A stretch of 27,154 nucleotides of DNA from a virus: positions 1 to 27,154 of the IMG/VR virus record IMGVR_UViG_3300031963_000782. The stretch is one strand, 5' to 3'. The notes beneath the pieces are model-generated. The model searched no databases, had not been told where the DNA came from, and was given only the letters and a program-made list of their open reading frames with translations. Position numbers and translations under genes: made by a program. Positions 2,880 to 19,579 of this stretch are shown here, one piece after another (within the stretch, counting starts at the first letter, position 1; each line of letters starts with the position of its first letter).

Positions 2880-3824
2880 TTACAGAGCCGGGTTCAGGTC
2901 AGCCACGATTCCATGAGCCGCCTCATTCCGCATTTCCAGCGTGAACTCAGCAATAAGCTGGGTCTTCTCGCTGTCACCGGTACGAGCCAGATCATTCGTC
3001 GCAAACGGACGCAGATACGCAACCGCTGCATACTCAGGATCAAGCAGCAGTGCGTCACGGGTACGCATGAACCTGTCGGGAACCACGCTGAGCGTCGAGA
3101 AATCGCTCATATAGACATCCGCAGCGCCGATAATGGTCGTCGGCTGATCACCAGGAGCCATATAACGCTGAGCAGCAATACCGGCAAACGCCGATACTTT
3201 TTGCTTCAGACCGCTATTGACCACCAGCAGCTTCGGATTTCCACCCGAAACAAACACCTCAGCAACTACATCCTTCAGCAACTGCTCGGTAAAGGTACGG
3301 GTAGCACCATCCGAACGGGTCGAAACACCAATCGTCGTGGGATCAGTGCCAGACGTGCCAGCGGAAGAGTTCGTTTTCAGGTACGACAGGATCGCGCCGA
3401 GTTTCCGAGCGGTCGTGGAGTTACCAGCAGTCTGACCCTGGTTAGCAGTCAGGATGGTTTCCATGTCGCGCTTGAGTTCTTGCGACGCTTTGCTCAACTG
3501 ATACGCCTTCTCAGACTTCCGGCCAGCCTTGTTAACAGCCTCAAGGGTGTTAGAAATCTGGATCGTCTTTTGAACGATCTGGCAGTAGTTACCAAGACGG
3601 GTCGTCGGGCTGATCGTGGTAGCCGTAGCATCGGCACCTTCAACCGCAGCGTTAGCACTCGTCGCAGCAGCCAGCGAGTCAGTCTGCCACTCGTGATAAA
3701 CAGCAGTCGCCTTGGTGCGAGCAAGGGTCGAAAGAATCGGGGTTTCGGTCGGGCTGATGTCATAGATGACATCGATAAGATCCTCGCGCTGACCAATCGC
3801 GCTATGTGCGGTAAAAGTTGACAT
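2880..3824 (-). CDS. Major capsid protein (DUF5309/SU10 major head protein type)
   Basis: The 314-aa protein opens MSTFTAHSAIGQREDLIDVIYDISPTETPILS and contains TKATAVYHEWQTDSLA, GNYCQIVQKTIQISNTLEAV and a C-terminal half with VVPDRFMRTRDALLLDPEYAAVAYLRPF. This order matches the HK97-fold major head proteins of SU10-like phages (DUF5309). It builds the icosahedral shell. The gene follows the scaffold by 11 nt, the usual scaffold-capsid order. The opposite strand is also open for about 300 codons; this is read as a codon-bias shadow. Confidence 0.9.
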   Translation of the reverse strand: MSTFTAHSAIGQREDLIDVIYDISPTETPILSTLARTKATAVYHEWQTDSLAAATSANAAVEGADATATTISPTTRLGNYCQIVQKTIQISNTLEAVNKAGRKSEKAYQLSKASQELKRDMETILTANQGQTAGNSTTARKLGAILSYLKTNSSAGTSGTDPTTIGVSTRSDGATRTFTEQLLKDVVAEVFVSGGNPKLLVVNSGLKQKVSAFAGIAAQRYMAPGDQPTTIIGAADVYMSDFSTLSVVPDRFMRTRDALLLDPEYAAVAYLRPFATNDLARTGDSEKTQLIAEFTLEMRNEAAHGIVADLNPAL

Positions 3825-14797: not shown

Positions 14798-15451
14798 TTA
14801 AGCGCAACTCAAGCTGTTGTCTGGAAAAAACGCATCCATAGTGATCGGTGCAACAGTACGCAACTGCGCCAAGACCTCACCTGCCAGTTCCCGGTGTTCC
14901 TTCTGTGTGGTTGGATCTAGCCTCTGCTGCAGATAGTGAATCCAAGAGCGCATAGTCCCATTCATATATAAACGAGACGTTGTCAGACCCTCTGGAAGGA
15001 TCGCTCTGGCCTGTTCCTTTGCAATACCCCTGGACAATGCCTCGGAGTACGCCTGATCGCACTGGCGAGCAATCCCAGCCTGTATAGCAGACCACCAGCG
15101 CTCCAGCTCCTGATCAGCAGTTGGAAGACTGTTTTGGCGGTTTTTAACATCCTGCAATCGTGCTTCTCTAGTGACACTTCCGCTCTGCAGGTAGTGGACA
15201 CTGGCATATCGCTGGCTGAATTCCTGGAACGAAAACGATCTGTGCCGAAGAATTTGCCTGCCGATGTCACGAGTGGTATCGATCTGCATGCAGACGTTAG
15301 CCATTTCAAACGGCGATACATGACCGTGTTGCATCAGATAACGCAAAAGGCCAGTCTTGCCAGAAGCTTGATCCTTGGGATTGCTCACCCGAGCGATGTA
15401 TAGGATCTGCTGGTCAATCTCTGGTGTAGCCCATTGGATACGTGCTCTCAT
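14798..15451 (-). CDS. thyX: Flavin-dependent thymidylate synthase
   Basis: The 217-aa product carries the ThyX signature RHRSFSFQEFSQRY at residues 69-82 (canonical RHRxxSxNExSxRY, here Q76 replaces N), preceded by HGHVSPFEMANVCMQI and followed by LPEGLTTSRLYMNGTMRSW, which contributes nucleotide binding. It makes dTMP from dUMP using FAD, NADPH and methylenetetrahydrofolate. ATGA overlap with the HNH gene. Length is within the family range. It supports phage DNA synthesis independently of host ThyA. Confidence 0.93.
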   Translation of the reverse strand: MRARIQWATPEIDQQILYIARVSNPKDQASGKTGLLRYLMQHGHVSPFEMANVCMQIDTTRDIGRQILRHRSFSFQEFSQRYASVHYLQSGSVTREARLQDVKNRQNSLPTADQELERWWSAIQAGIARQCDQAYSEALSRGIAKEQARAILPEGLTTSRLYMNGTMRSWIHYLQQRLDPTTQKEHRELAGEVLAQLRTVAPITMDAFFPDNSLSCA

Positions 15452-15732: not shown

Positions 15733-15997
15733 TGTGCCACCTCATGATTTCGCGTTGGAGTTCCTCTTTCCCTGAGATCCCGCGTGATTTTTCTACCCGC
15801 TCTAAATACTCACGCCGCTTTTCTTTGCTTCTTTTGGACAGGACGTACTGCGCTTCGCAATACAATGCAAACGCATTACTTTGCAGTCCGACTATGGTTC
15901 CGTCTGGTAGATACTTGGCAATCGCTGAATCGTGTCTCTTTCCGCACGCATAGCACGCAAGTCGTCCGTCCAGGTCAAGCCCTTCTCCGTCGCCCAT
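15695..15997 (-). CDS. Small Cys-containing phage protein downstream of ninB, 100 aa
   Basis: The product holds RLACYACGKRHDSAIAKYL, then PDGTIVGLQSNAFALYCEAQ, a basic helix KRSKEKRREYLERVEKSRG and a helical C-terminus. One C-x2-C pair is seen near the start. AAGGGTG lies about 7 nt before the ATG. The first 106 nt overlap the 3' end of ninB in another frame and the last 38 nt overlap the HNH gene. The family is not recognised, but composition and the good SD support a real gene. A role beside NinB and HNH in recombination is plausible. Confidence 0.65.
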   Translation of the reverse strand: MGDGEGLDLDGRLACYACGKRHDSAIAKYLPDGTIVGLQSNAFALYCEAQYVLSKRSKEKRREYLERVEKSRGISGKEELQREIMRWHNVQKQGTASGGR

Positions 15998-16323
15998 GCA
16001 ATCACCCTTTCCACGTAGTCCGAGAAGGCAGCAGTTGTCATCCCTGTCGTAGTCGGCTCCTGCTCAACAACCTTGCCATTGGGTAGCTCAATCACCCTGC
16101 CATTCAAGAACAGGGTTTTGAAGTAGCAATGCCAAGTCTCGGCGGAGTATTCCGACCCAGGCTTGATCTGATTTGCGATCTCATGCAGGACAGCCCAATA
16201 AAGCGAGTTTTGAGCCGTTGTTCTGTTGGGTTTGGAGATGGACACCACCCACCCGGGTTTAGCGTCTCTAACAGCCTCTAAAGCCTGTTTCCTGGCATTG
16301 TCGTTAATCAGCGGAATAATCAT
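15892..16323 (-). CDS. ninB: NinB-like recombination protein
   Basis: The 143-aa protein opens IIPLINDNARKQALEAVRDA and contains TTAQNSLYWAVLHEIANQI, ETWHCYFKTLFLN and TTAAFSDYVERVIAWATEKG, the order expected for NinB, a lambda-type recombination mediator (Orf) that helps load RecA-like or annealing activities on SSB-coated DNA. GGAG sits 8 nt before the ATG. The ATG directly abuts the TAA of one upstream frame (TAAATG), while the methyltransferase frame ends 20 nt inside it. The C-terminus seems extended past the usual domain and overlaps the next gene. Confidence 0.82.
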   Translation of the reverse strand: MIIPLINDNARKQALEAVRDAKPGWVVSISKPNRTTAQNSLYWAVLHEIANQIKPGSEYSAETWHCYFKTLFLNGRVIELPNGKVVEQEPTTTGMTTAAFSDYVERVIAWATEKGLTWTDDLRAMRAERDTIQRLPSIYQTEP

Positions 16324-17206
16324 TTAGCAATCTCCATGCTTCTGCTGCACAGAGAGGGACTTGTCCGTTGCCAATGGCTTTAAGTCTGTCCACCCTAGCG
16401 GCCACCCCATCAGCCACTCGACCCACGTTGGGTTCAACTTGCCACCATTCCCGGCTCCCATCAGCCTGGCTTCCTCGGTGCTTGTGTTCTTGTTTAACAG
16501 TTCCCATGAACCAGTGCCGCCACACATCCCAGCCGTTCTCGGTGTGGGACAGTTCTTCACTGCTGTTGCCAGTCCATCCCCGCTGTTTTTGCTGGCTCCT
16601 TTGCGGTTGTAATTCACGCATACTGTCGGTGTGGGCCAGTGAACCTGTGTCCCCAGATTGGGAGACTTCCGATTGCCCTGAGTTGTCCCGCTGTCCTTCC
16701 AATCCCGAGCGTTTGGACTTGCCCACAATCCAGATTCTGTCCCTCTGGTGATTGGCTCCAACGTCTGCTGCTCCCATAACAGTCCATTGCGTGTCATACC
16801 CCAGCGCGGTAAGGTCTGCAATGACTCTGGTTCCTCCCCGAGTAGTAAGCATTGGGGAGTTTTCCACGAACACGAATCGAGGTCGAACTTCGCCAACCAC
16901 GCGCGCCATGTGCGTCCACATTCCTGATCGCTCACCGTCAAGTCCGGCGCCTTTTCCTGCGGCGCTGATGTCTTGGCATGGAAACCCGCCAGATACAACA
17001 TCAACAATTCCTCGCCACGGCTTTCCGTCAAAGGTTTGTATGTCATCCCAAACCGGGAAAGGCGTGAGAAAACCGTCATTTTGTCGGGCGCACAGTACGC
17101 TTGCTGGATATGGTTCCCACTCGACGGCGCAGACTGTTCGCCATCCAAGCAGGTGTCCTCCAAGTATTCCTCCACCAGCGCCTGCGAAAAGAGCCAACTC
17201 ATTCAC
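16304..17206 (-). CDS. DNA (cytosine-5) methyltransferase
   Basis: All main C5-methylase motifs are visible in the 300-aa product: motif I LFAGAGGGILGG (residues 6-17, SAM binding), motif IV GGFPCQDIS with catalytic C77, motif VI FVENSPML (E115-N116; the usual ENV is ENS), motif VIII QRDRIWIVG (154-162) and motif X AIGNGQVPLCAAEAW (277-291). The region between VIII and X, the target recognition part, is hydrophilic. It starts with GTG overlapping the nuclease stop, 4 nt after AGGAGG. It probably protects phage DNA from restriction or alters regulation. The same DNA is open in a second frame. Confidence 0.88.
   Translation of the reverse strand: MNELALFAGAGGGILGGHLLGWRTVCAVEWEPYPASVLCARQNDGFLTPFPVWDDIQTFDGKPWRGIVDVVSGGFPCQDISAAGKGAGLDGERSGMWTHMARVVGEVRPRFVFVENSPMLTTRGGTRVIADLTALGYDTQWTVMGAADVGANHQRDRIWIVGKSKRSGLEGQRDNSGQSEVSQSGDTGSLAHTDSMRELQPQRSQQKQRGWTGNSSEELSHTENGWDVWRHWFMGTVKQEHKHRGSQADGSREWWQVEPNVGRVADGVAARVDRLKAIGNGQVPLCAAEAWRLLNDYSAD
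16324..17202 (-). CDS. Overlapping ORF in second frame of the methyltransferase locus, 292 aa
   Basis: This frame lies entirely inside the methyltransferase gene on the same strand. The ATG at 17202 is 8 nt after AGGAGG and follows the nuclease stop (TGA-ATG); its TAA abuts the ninB ATG. The product begins MSWLFSQALVEEYLEDT, has a middle with SGLWASPNARDWKD and HWPTPTVCVNYNRKG, and ends with LNPTWVEWLMGWP. I recall protein-database entries with the same opening and with LNP-WVEWLMG endings, but many could be the same overlapped frame. It is either a real overprinted gene or a conserved shadow; the junctions favour translation. Confidence 0.45.
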   Translation of the reverse strand: MSWLFSQALVEEYLEDTCLDGEQSAPSSGNHIQQAYCAPDKMTVFSRLSRFGMTYKPLTESRGEELLMLYLAGFHAKTSAPQEKAPDLTVSDQECGRTWRAWLAKFDLDSCSWKTPQCLLLGEEPESLQTLPRWGMTRNGLLWEQQTLEPITRGTESGLWASPNARDWKDSGTTQGNRKSPNLGTQVHWPTPTVCVNYNRKGASKNSGDGLATAVKNCPTPRTAGMCGGTGSWELLNKNTSTEEARLMGAGNGGKLNPTWVEWLMGWPLGWTDLKPLATDKSLSVQQKHGDC

Positions 17207-17511
17207 AATTCCTCCTCTTTGAGTTTCCAGCGGTTGCCCTCCTTGTACCAGCCATGAAGGACAACCCTCCAGCCAGACTTCAACATTTCTGGATACGCTT
17301 CCGCATCCTCGATCTTGTGTTTCCTGGCTGACAGGTTGGACTTGCTGGTGACCTGCACAGCAACCGTTTCATTGTTCCCAATTGCCAGTAGATCGATACA
17401 GCCAAACAGGTCGTGCTTGCGCTTGGTGAAAGCGTTGTAGTGCTCTACCGTCGCAACCAGATACCCAAGATCACTCAGGTGCGCTTTGCTTTTTGCCGTC
17501 AGACTGACCAT
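17203..17511 (-). CDS. PD-(D/E)XK-like nuclease-fold protein
   Basis: The 102-aa protein contains HDLFGCIDLLAIGNNETVAVQVTS, where D41 (or D34) and the QVTS strand stand in for the D...(D/E)xK catalytic core, with Q in place of the second acid. This 'F-G-x-I-D-x-L ... VQ-T' pattern recurs in small phage proteins of the restriction-endonuclease-like fold. GGAG lies 7 nt before the ATG, and the 5' end overlaps the repressor gene by 41 nt. Its location beside a methyltransferase and NinB fits DNA processing. Activity is uncertain because of the Q. Confidence 0.66.
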   Translation of the reverse strand: MVSLTAKSKAHLSDLGYLVATVEHYNAFTKRKHDLFGCIDLLAIGNNETVAVQVTSKSNLSARKHKIEDAEAYPEMLKSGWRVVLHGWYKEGNRWKLKEEEL

Positions 17512-17746
17512 TGAACACTCCAGGACACAGATCAGATGCCTTCACTCGACCGTCTGTCAGACGCTCAATCTCCAGTGCTCGCTTGAGAGGGATTCCAAAG
17601 TCACGCCACTTGTAGATCGCCTGCCGACTCAACTCTAAATGAGCCGCTAGTCTGCTAGTCCCACCGAGATACGCTGCTGCCACCTTCAATGCTGTTTGAC
17701 TGTCGATGTACGCTGCTGCTAACTTCTCTGCTGTTTGACTGTCCAT
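17471..17746 (-). CDS. Cro/YdaS-like helix-turn-helix repressor
   Basis: From ATG 17746 (AGGAGGTGTCAAC directly upstream) the protein is 91 aa. Residues 29-47 (GTSRLAAHLELSRQAIYKW) are a helix-turn-helix and the following IPLKRALEIERLTDGRV and KASDLCP complete the Cro/YdaS-type fold. The gene diverges from the plus-strand early operon across a 164-nt control region, the usual place of a Cro/CI regulator. The N-terminus carries two near-identical 13-residue copies (DSQTAEKLAAAYI, DSQTALKVAAAYL). A longer in-frame start at 17794 has no SD. Confidence 0.8.
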   Translation of the reverse strand: MDSQTAEKLAAAYIDSQTALKVAAAYLGGTSRLAAHLELSRQAIYKWRDFGIPLKRALEIERLTDGRVKASDLCPGVFNGQSDGKKQSAPE

Positions 17747-17747
17747 G
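17670..17747 (-). repeat. Tandem 39-bp duplication at the 5' end of the repressor gene
   Basis: 17670-17708 and 17709-17747 are adjacent copies matching in 34 of 39 positions, both starting TACGCTGCTGC and ending with TTTGACTGTC-ATG on the plus strand. The period equals 13 codons, so the frame is kept. The upstream copy includes the actual start codon of the repressor. It extends the helical N-terminus by one repeat. Confidence 0.82.
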
Positions 17748-17910
17748 TTGACACCTCCTGCCCGGATGGTACACTGACGGTTGATACGTTGCAAACAGAG
17801 CCTATAGTTTTTCGCTAATACAACAACAAAACCTATAAAAAAATATTTCTACACACAACACAAAAACGTAGGCATAATGACAACCATTGCAACACAACAC
17901 GGGGAAGCAA
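17747..17910. promoter_or_regulatory. Divergent control region between repressor and rightward early operon
   Basis: This 164-nt AT-rich region separates the leftward repressor gene from the rightward early genes. It includes TTGCAA with TACCAT at 17-nt spacing on the minus strand as a weak candidate for the repressor promoter, CTATAG at 17802, TATAAA at 17834-17839 as a candidate -10 box for rightward transcription, and the 39-nt shared element. GGGGAAG precedes the first plus-strand ATG. Operators for the Cro-like protein are expected here. Confidence 0.6.
17829..17867 (+). promoter_or_regulatory. 39-nt promoter/operator-like element, copy 2
   Basis: Plus-strand sequence starts AAACCTATA, continues with an A-run and ATATTTC, and ends ACACAAAAAC; it matches copy 1 (14338-14376, minus) at 35 of 39 positions. 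It lies 43 nt before the ATG of the first rightward gene and points toward it, as copy 1 does for the leftward replication operon. CCTA and TAGG (17832-17835, 17869-17872) flank it as dyad arms. Confidence 0.65.
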
Positions 17911-18230: not shown

Positions 18231-18427
18231 TCTGTGACCCCAGCTTTGTCTGGGTACCAAGCGCCGCCACAGACGTAACGCAAACATGGCGCAAATTCGG
18301 GTGGAAACCTATTTCGGAGAGAACAGATAATGAAGCACATCGCATCCGCGCTCGTCAAAGCGCAGCAAGCATTCGGGCCAGCATTGAAATCGAGCAGCAA
18401 TCCGCACTTTCGCAGCAAGTACGCTGA
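18227..18427 (+). CDS. Small conserved-type early phage protein, up to 66 aa
   Basis: The frame starts with an ATG overlapping the previous stop (ATGA). Its first half, MICDPSFVWVPSAATDVTQT and then WRKFGWKPISE, fits a recurrent small phage protein type with a 'VPS..TDV..TW...GW.P.SE' line. The usual protein ends about there; here the frame runs on for 98 nt inside the ERF gene, adding an Arg/Ala/Ser-rich tail. So the C-terminal part may be accidental. No function known to me. Confidence 0.6.
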   Translation: MICDPSFVWVPSAATDVTQTWRKFGWKPISERTDNEAHRIRARQSAASIRASIEIEQQSALSQQVR

Positions 18428-18884
18428 TCTATCCGCAGTTGTCGAGGCTGTGATCGATGGACTAAACAAGAACGGTATCGCCATGCTGCAACTGACCCAT
18501 GAGTGCGATAACGGCGTGATCGTTGAAACAATGTTCGTACATGAGTCAGGCGAGACACTCAGCGGAGGCAAGCTGCACGTTCCAGCTACCAAACAAGACG
18601 CACAAGGCTACGGATCAGCCTTGACCTACGCTCGCCGCTACAGCCTGATGGCAGCTACGGGCATCGCTCCAGAGGATGACGACGGTAACGCTGCAAGCAA
18701 GAAGCCCATGAAACCGCTGGATGCCGCAGGAGCCTGTAAAACGCTCTCAGAGGCTGGATCGATGGAAGACCTGAAAGTTATCTATGCCAAGGCGTTCAAG
18801 TCGTTCCAGGGCGATGCTGAGGCGCTGAAGGCTATCGACGCAGCCAAAGACAAGCGAAAAGGTGAGTTGCTGGAGATTGCGTGA
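18330..18884 (+). CDS. erf: ERF-family single-strand annealing protein
   Basis: The 184-aa product has the ERF core: NPHFRSKYADLSAVVEAV at residues 24-41, then CDNGVIVETMFVHESGE and DAQGYGSALTYARRYSLMA followed by GIAPEDDDGNAA. ERF-type proteins anneal complementary single strands, and drive recombination-dependent replication and circularisation. It is followed directly by the YqaJ exonuclease, the usual annealase-exonuclease pair. The SD (GGAGA) is some 11 nt away from the ATG, so initiation may also rely on the overlapping 66-aa frame. C-terminal region is helical. Confidence 0.9.
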   Translation: MKHIASALVKAQQAFGPALKSSSNPHFRSKYADLSAVVEAVIDGLNKNGIAMLQLTHECDNGVIVETMFVHESGETLSGGKLHVPATKQDAQGYGSALTYARRYSLMAATGIAPEDDDGNAASKKPMKPLDAAGACKTLSEAGSMEDLKVIYAKAFKSFQGDAEALKAIDAAKDKRKGELLEIA

Positions 18885-19579
18885 TGGAACAGCGAACCGA
18901 TGAGTGGTTCAAAGAAAGACTTGGACATGTGACCGCGTCAAAAATCAAAGATGTTCTTGCCAAAAAAGGAACTGCAACAAGAGGCAATTATTTGATGCAG
19001 CTTGTTTCTGAGCGGCTTACTGGACAAAGAGAGGAAACTTTTGTTTCTGCTGCAATGAAAAGGGGGATTGAAGTTGAAGACAAGGCAAGAATGGCTTATG
19101 AATCAATATATGGATTTGTTGAAAAAACAGGATTTCATAAGCACAAAAAAATTAAGTGGTTTGGAGCGTCTCCAGACGGTTTAATTGGAGAAGACGGTGT
19201 ACTTGAGATTAAGTGCCCAAATACTGCAACTCATTTGGAATACATAAGGACAGACAAAATACCTATGCAATATATGCTGCAAATGACCGCGCAAATATCA
19301 TGCACAGGTAGAAAGTGGGCACATTTTGTTAGTTTTGATGACAGGCTTCCAGAGGGTTTACAGCTTTTTGTAAAGGAGTACGAGCCATCTTGGACTGATG
19401 TTAATTTTGTCAACAGAAGAGTTATCGAATTTGTAAAAGACGTTGAAAAGGAGCTTGAAGAATGCCAGTCTTATATGAAGTCACCGCAGCAGGTGAAAAA
19501 TACACCACCAAAGACGGAACAGAAAAAACCAAATGGATCAGAATCGGATCTGTCATCCAAACCAAGTCAGGAAAAATGA
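18881..19579 (+). CDS. YqaJ/lambda-exonuclease-family 5'-3' exonuclease
   Basis: The 232-aa protein shows EQRTDEWFKERLGHVTASKI at the start, KRGIEVEDKAR (E64/E66) and the core GASPDGLIGEDGVLEIKCP with D99, E109 and K111 as catalytic residues, then a long helical tail. This is the YqaJ viral recombinase type. It resects duplex ends for the ERF protein. GTG at 18881 overlaps the ERF stop (GTGATGG), and ATG 18884 is the alternative start. The gene is strikingly AT-rich (about 30-43% GC in sampled 60-nt blocks against 62% in ERF). The last 118 nt overlap the next gene. Confidence 0.88.
   Translation: MMEQRTDEWFKERLGHVTASKIKDVLAKKGTATRGNYLMQLVSERLTGQREETFVSAAMKRGIEVEDKARMAYESIYGFVEKTGFHKHKKIKWFGASPDGLIGEDGVLEIKCPNTATHLEYIRTDKIPMQYMLQMTAQISCTGRKWAHFVSFDDRLPEGLQLFVKEYEPSWTDVNFVNRRVIEFVKDVEKELEECQSYMKSPQQVKNTPPKTEQKKPNGSESDLSSKPSQEK

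Follow-up and report, generated by a model that had tools for sequence, protein, structure and literature searches.

The window analysed here, i.e. the whole stretch of 27,154 nucleotides of viral DNA (IMG/VR record IMGVR_UViG_3300031963_000782), carries on its minus strand a locus at which a C5-cytosine DNA methyltransferase chain, hereafter named MT, and a second protein, hereafter named OV, are read from the same DNA. An earlier note on this sequence had pointed to two long frames on one strand, and their exact coordinates and starts were confirmed (300 aa from a GTG and 292 aa from an ATG, respectively). The two starts are 4 nt apart and the OV frame is offset by +1. The locus comprises the following features:

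16304..17206, minus strand: MT frame, C5-cytosine DNA methyltransferase chain of 300 aa with a GTG start (PF00145, HhaI and HaeIII matches)
16324..17202, minus strand: OV frame, second protein of 292 aa with an ATG start, +1 relative to MT (open frame kept, purifying selection, phrog_1008)
17211..17216, minus strand: AGGAGG, Shine-Dalgarno-like site, 4 nt from the MT GTG and 8 nt from the OV ATG
17200..17206, minus strand: GTGAATG, overlapping starts (MT GTG, OV ATG), enclosing the TGA stop of the upstream ORF
16973..16981, minus strand: motif IV of MT with the catalytic Pro-Cys-Gln (GGFPCQ), identified by consensus and conserved among relatives
16445..16711, minus strand: variable region from motif VIII to motif X, corresponding to MT aa 166-254, OV-constrained and MT-unconstrained
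16387..16440, minus strand: OV block LNPTWVEWLMGWPLGWT, aa 255-272, motif IX-like (weak similarity, position as expected)
16355..16396, minus strand: motif X of MT, RVDRLKAIGNGQVP (consensus, relatives)
15892..16323, minus strand: NinB/Orf-like recombination mediator, the next gene, whose ATG immediately follows the OV stop

Near the locus, the window also encodes a ThyX-type thymidylate synthase (14798-15451), a Cro/YdaS-like regulator (17471-17794) and, on the opposite strand, an Erf-like annealing protein and a RecE-like exonuclease (18330-19579). Together with NinB/Orf, these neighbours resemble a lambdoid-style early region.

Anatomy of the two chains

The MT frame shows the hallmarks of C5-methyltransferases, namely the SAM-binding motif I and the catalytic PCQ and ENV-type motifs, and matched PF00145 in Pfam (E 3.7e-33) and phrog_363 in PHROG. 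These SAM-binding and catalytic motifs are conserved in 80 relatives. Motifs I, IV (GGFPCQ), VI, VIII and X are present; no match to motif IX was found in the MT frame by motif scoring. The Pfam match ends at position 224 of the 324 positions of the profile, and the MT profile aligned to HhaI over 15-181 only (motifs I-VIII). In the AlphaFold model of MT, a folded core is followed by a disordered stretch (residues 182-275, pLDDT ~33) and then by a C-terminal helix, and the best matches of this model in Foldseek were HaeIII and HhaI, over ~170 columns. An ordinary C5-methyltransferase has motif IX and a recognition domain on its one chain, but MT has neither. Its target-recognition segment is disordered in the predicted structure, and it is the OV frame that carries this segment.

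OV matched phrog_1008 in PHROG (E 2.7e-24) and had no match in Pfam, NCBIfam, PADLOC or PDB, nor did its structural model have a fold match in the PDB. When modelled alone, OV reached a mean pLDDT of 55 and a pTM of 0.25 and was confident only around LNPTWVEWLMGWPLGWT. The lack of a confident fold might be as expected of a chain that folds together with a partner, a low-confidence single-chain model neither proving nor excluding one. Near the C-terminal end of OV lies the block LNPxWVEWLMGFPxGW, which weakly resembles motif IX (compare LTPRECARLMGFPDTF in L335). Of 10 OV representatives scanned for motif IX, 7 had their best window at this block (P 0.0015-0.18); OV scored 2-11 bits versus 24-50 for canonical enzymes, and profile-profile comparison of OV with motif IX was not significant; the resemblance is thus only suggestive of motif IX identity. 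None of the ORFs among ~500 loci combined motifs I-VIII, the LMGFP block and motif X.

Short modules of the form [W]x[ST]P occur in the middle of OV, with 0 to 4 copies per homologue (WASP, WPTP and CPTP in the OV of the window). Recent swapping of recognition cassettes between backbones was searched for at the DNA level, and is not claimed, since only one pair reached the threshold.

Conservation and selection of the second frame

Stop codons in the +1 frame were compared with a null model in which the MT protein was kept fixed and its own synonymous codons were permuted. At the window locus, 2 stops were observed versus ~9 expected (reached in 0 of 2000 permutations), one of them just 5' of the OV start and the other being OV's own stop. 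The longest +1-frame run was 293 codons versus ~98 expected, a length reached in 0 of 500 permutations; both values lie well outside chance expectation. A useful internal contrast to OV comes from further long ORFs in alternative frames of the window, which are near the codon-usage expectation (302 aa, P 0.046; 273 aa, P 0.17; 257 aa, P 0.016). The 302-aa ORF (window 2913-3821 (+) versus 2880-3824 (-)) runs opposite to the gene of the major head protein; permutation largely accounts for its length, and it had no PHROG match.

Homologous loci were collected with MT-frame peptides only, so that the collection was unbiased towards OV, and comprised 301 distinct genes from five divergent lineages. 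OV was open across essentially the full gene in 78 of the 79 loci of the first MT-picked set, and the 301 genes contained 26 stops in the middle part of the +1 frame versus ~1,051 predicted by synonymous-codon permutation. By lineage, counted over 30-85% of MT, the observed and expected numbers were 1/234, 1/173, 5/313, 1/42 and 18/289. No depletion was seen in the control, made up of 13 canonical single-chain C5-methyltransferases (251 stops versus 250 expected). The OV frame is open beyond what the MT protein and its codon usage give, as is expected of a dual-coding gene.

Selection was analysed in 69 non-overlapping pairs, isolated changes being scored by their effect in each frame. Changes that are synonymous in MT and nonsynonymous in OV (SN) were depleted compared with SS changes, and the synonymous sites of MT are therefore constrained. 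Over MT aa 1-165, omega was 0.03-0.17 for MT and 0.28-0.49 for OV; over aa 166-254, it was 0.08 (0.05-0.10) for OV and 1.63 (0.87-3.55) for MT; and over aa 255-300, both values were ~0.10-0.16. Both frames are under purifying selection, which is segregated along the gene, MT dominating at the catalytic motifs and OV in the middle. OV is the functional frame precisely where C5-methyltransferases carry their recognition domain.

Start codons were analysed in 139 distinct genes from two lineages. Asn2 of MT, where present, was encoded by AAT in 129 of 129 genes, compared with 542 AAT and 801 AAC codons elsewhere (40% AAT), and since Asn2 is always AAT, the ATG of OV is preserved. The Shine-Dalgarno spacing in relatives peaks at 8 nt (OV ATG) and 4 nt (MT start), and position 1 of MT in the alignment is a non-start codon in 22 of the 139 genes. 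In the clostridial lineage, OV starts ~50 codons into MT, its ATG being supplied by a Tyr codon that is TAT in 43 of 43 genes, versus 37% TAT elsewhere, and a GGAG-type site is found just upstream of the OV start in 33 of the 43.

The earlier note had suspected that the second frame may be conserved, and had weighed an overprinting of two real proteins against a conserved shadow of the methylase gene; it named frequent second-frame stops in homologues, or no constraint at MT-synonymous sites, as signs against the former, and proposed a dN/dS-type check of the second frame. Stops proved to be nearly absent from the MT-picked homologues, the MT-synonymous sites are constrained and omega of OV is 0.08-0.49 along the gene, all of which favours two real proteins. 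OV is almost certainly a genuine gene under selection. Its dominance in mid-gene and its role as the recognition part, which is probable, go beyond what that note saw.

Distribution, annotation and repeat tracts

A tblastn search with OV matched 72 phage records, and the match was the +1 frame of the same methyltransferase gene in all 12 phage regions examined. An OV profile search of bacterial genomes gave 240 relatives, the best 80 of which were examined as loci. MT was found in the same place in 80 of these 80 OV-picked loci, which belong to Proteobacteria, Verrucomicrobia, Planctomycetes, Clostridia, Actinobacteria and others, and no standalone OV gene was found among the best 80 of the 240 relatives. 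An MT stop with an intact OV occurs in L047/L048 (MT codon 255), L109, L125, L130, L133 and L161, the last five of which were picked by OV. L152 and a few OV-picked loci with MT stops look damaged. The reverse case is L068, with one OV stop and an intact MT.

Annotators have mostly named one frame only, which is OV instead of MT in phPA-G and Vibrio phage 1.236.O, and the annotation of Paenibacillus phage Shelly lists a 'g55 internal gene'. In PHROG, phrog_363 (MT) and phrog_1008 (OV) are both labelled 'DNA methyltransferase', and neither entry says that a single gene encodes the two in different frames. OV-encoding stretches are also found on plasmid records of Leptospira interrogans (NZ_CP043879.1, NZ_CP092671.1) and Acinetobacter baumannii (NZ_CP050417.1), where they are annotated solely as DNA cytosine methyltransferase. 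Searches of the open-access literature turned up no previous account of phage C5-methyltransferase genes read in two overlapping frames.

In the clostridial-type set (L173-L252), simple repeats of the (AG)n, (AC)n or poly-G type are present inside the gene in 25 of 80 loci (for instance L188, L189, L217, L232, L233, L246, L228 and L247), in most cases shortly before the motif IX/X region. In ~11 clostridial-type loci, the two frames change places at the repeat tract. The repeat tracts suggest phase variation of the dual-coding gene in this lineage. A fused arrangement was also seen in L498/L502, where a 319-aa ORF (762-1718) runs from MT motifs I-VIII directly into an OV-type recognition region with a motif IX-like end, motif X being located in an overlapping frame.

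Proposed function and comparison with known systems

Both frames are under selection, the OV start is conserved, constraint is split along the gene and MT has no recognition domain. The locus probably encodes a two-chain C5-methyltransferase like M.EcoHK31I, in which OV, as the nested beta subunit, would contribute motif IX and the recognition region. The role of recognition subunit is suggested by the position of OV, the segregated constraint, the obligate co-occurrence with MT and the precedent, and we infer that OV is translated in cells, binds MT and contains motif IX. One mRNA with a single Shine-Dalgarno site and two starts 4 nt apart would then be read in two frames. The MT frame would give the large chain, with the SAM-binding and catalytic core (motifs I-VIII), the motif X helix and an unconstrained linker between them, and the OV frame would give the second chain, whose middle and end are placed where other C5-methyltransferases have motif IX and the target-recognition domain. 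MT and OV would come together as one active, sequence-specific enzyme, as in M.EcoHK31I, which would methylate the phage DNA and probably protect it from host restriction.

Several observations count against OV being a beta subunit. The motif IX match is weak, and OV is without the database or fold match that would identify it. Its first 160 residues are constrained (omega 0.28-0.49) and are not obviously needed for recognition. For M.EcoHK31I, moreover, the predicted recognition domain is assigned to the large chain and not to the small one (PMC3404938).

It is possible, but unlikely, that OV, although a genuine product of overprinting, merely rides on the methyltransferase gene and serves some unrelated purpose, e.g. 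anti-restriction or regulation. Such a protein could account for the purifying selection over the full length of OV, first 160 residues included, for the weak motif IX similarity and for the absence of a known fold. However, an independently useful protein should sometimes occur outside the MT gene, and OV never did in the best 80 of the 240 relatives. In addition, MT is without a recognition domain and is unconstrained exactly where OV constraint peaks, so that MT seems to need something from OV.

Very improbable, in our view, is that ribosomes enter the OV frame by a programmed frameshift in MT and not at a start of its own, so that one fused product would run from motifs I-VIII into the recognition region and motif IX. 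Fused MT-N/OV-C frames do exist at the repeat tracts of the clostridial lineage and in L498/L502. Against this reading, two lineages in which OV starts at different positions both show a conserved ATG for OV with a suitably placed Shine-Dalgarno site, the N-terminal half of OV remains open and under constraint, the fused chain would be without motif X, and no shift site was identified. Finally, although composition does yield long alternative-frame ORFs, such as the antisense ORFs of the window, the idea that OV is a shadow without coding function, cast by codon bias, base composition or methylase motifs, is refuted as the explanation of the whole pattern. Synonymous permutation, with the MT protein and its codon usage left unchanged, gives ~1,051 expected stops versus 26 observed, the canonical C5-methyltransferases show no depletion, omega is 0.08 in the middle of OV, and AAT is invariant at Asn2.

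As an extension of the two-subunit reading, on which we are evenly divided, one ancient dual-coding gene in phages and prophages of many phyla would encode both methyltransferase subunits. OV would hold a modular, exchangeable recognition part, so that specificity would evolve there and the catalytic core of MT would stay constant, and repeats would switch both frames in one lineage. If OV is the recognition subunit, the overlap may have been kept because both halves of the enzyme stay linked, co-expressed and co-transferred.

Hundreds of phages and prophages share the MT/OV arrangement. In genomes of double-stranded DNA, few long overlaps on one strand are known, and they are disputed. The present case offers ~290 codons in two frames, homologues in the hundreds, a negative control with a clean outcome, and a switch along the gene in which frame is constrained. 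Because databases usually annotate one frame, hundreds of phage and prophage records lack a probable enzyme subunit, and any prediction of methylation specificity that uses just the annotated chain would consult the wrong frame.

Among known enzymes, the monomeric M.HhaI and M.HaeIII have the catalytic core with motifs I-VIII in common with MT, but, unlike MT, each also has motif IX and a recognition domain on its single chain. The multispecific phage C5-methyltransferases of the SPbeta/phi3T group carry tandem recognition modules, of which the [W]x[ST]P modules of OV are reminiscent, but these are single-chain enzymes, in contrast to the two frames found here. M.EcoHK31I was reportedly described by Lee, Kam and Shaw in 1995, and its small chain is encoded in another frame inside the gene of the large chain. 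According to PMC3404938, M.EcoHK31I (YGGCCR) is a two-polypeptide C5-methyltransferase with motifs I-VIII and X on the large chain and motif IX on the small chain. By this description, MT would correspond to the large chain, with I-VIII and X and without IX, and OV, like the small chain, lies in another frame within the gene. Here, however, the overlap covers 292 of 300 codons and the starts are only 4 nt apart, it is the second chain that appears to hold the recognition region, and the arrangement spans many phage and prophage lineages. M.AquI (CYCGRG) is also a C5-methyltransferase in two polypeptides (PMC3404938), naturally so, as is proposed for MT and OV, but it is split within the variable region with motifs IX and X in the small chain, whereas motif X stays with the large chain here. 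Compared with these systems, the new features of the MT/OV gene are its breadth across phages and prophages, the starts 4 nt apart, the inverted constraint and, in one lineage, the repeat tracts that suggest phase variation.
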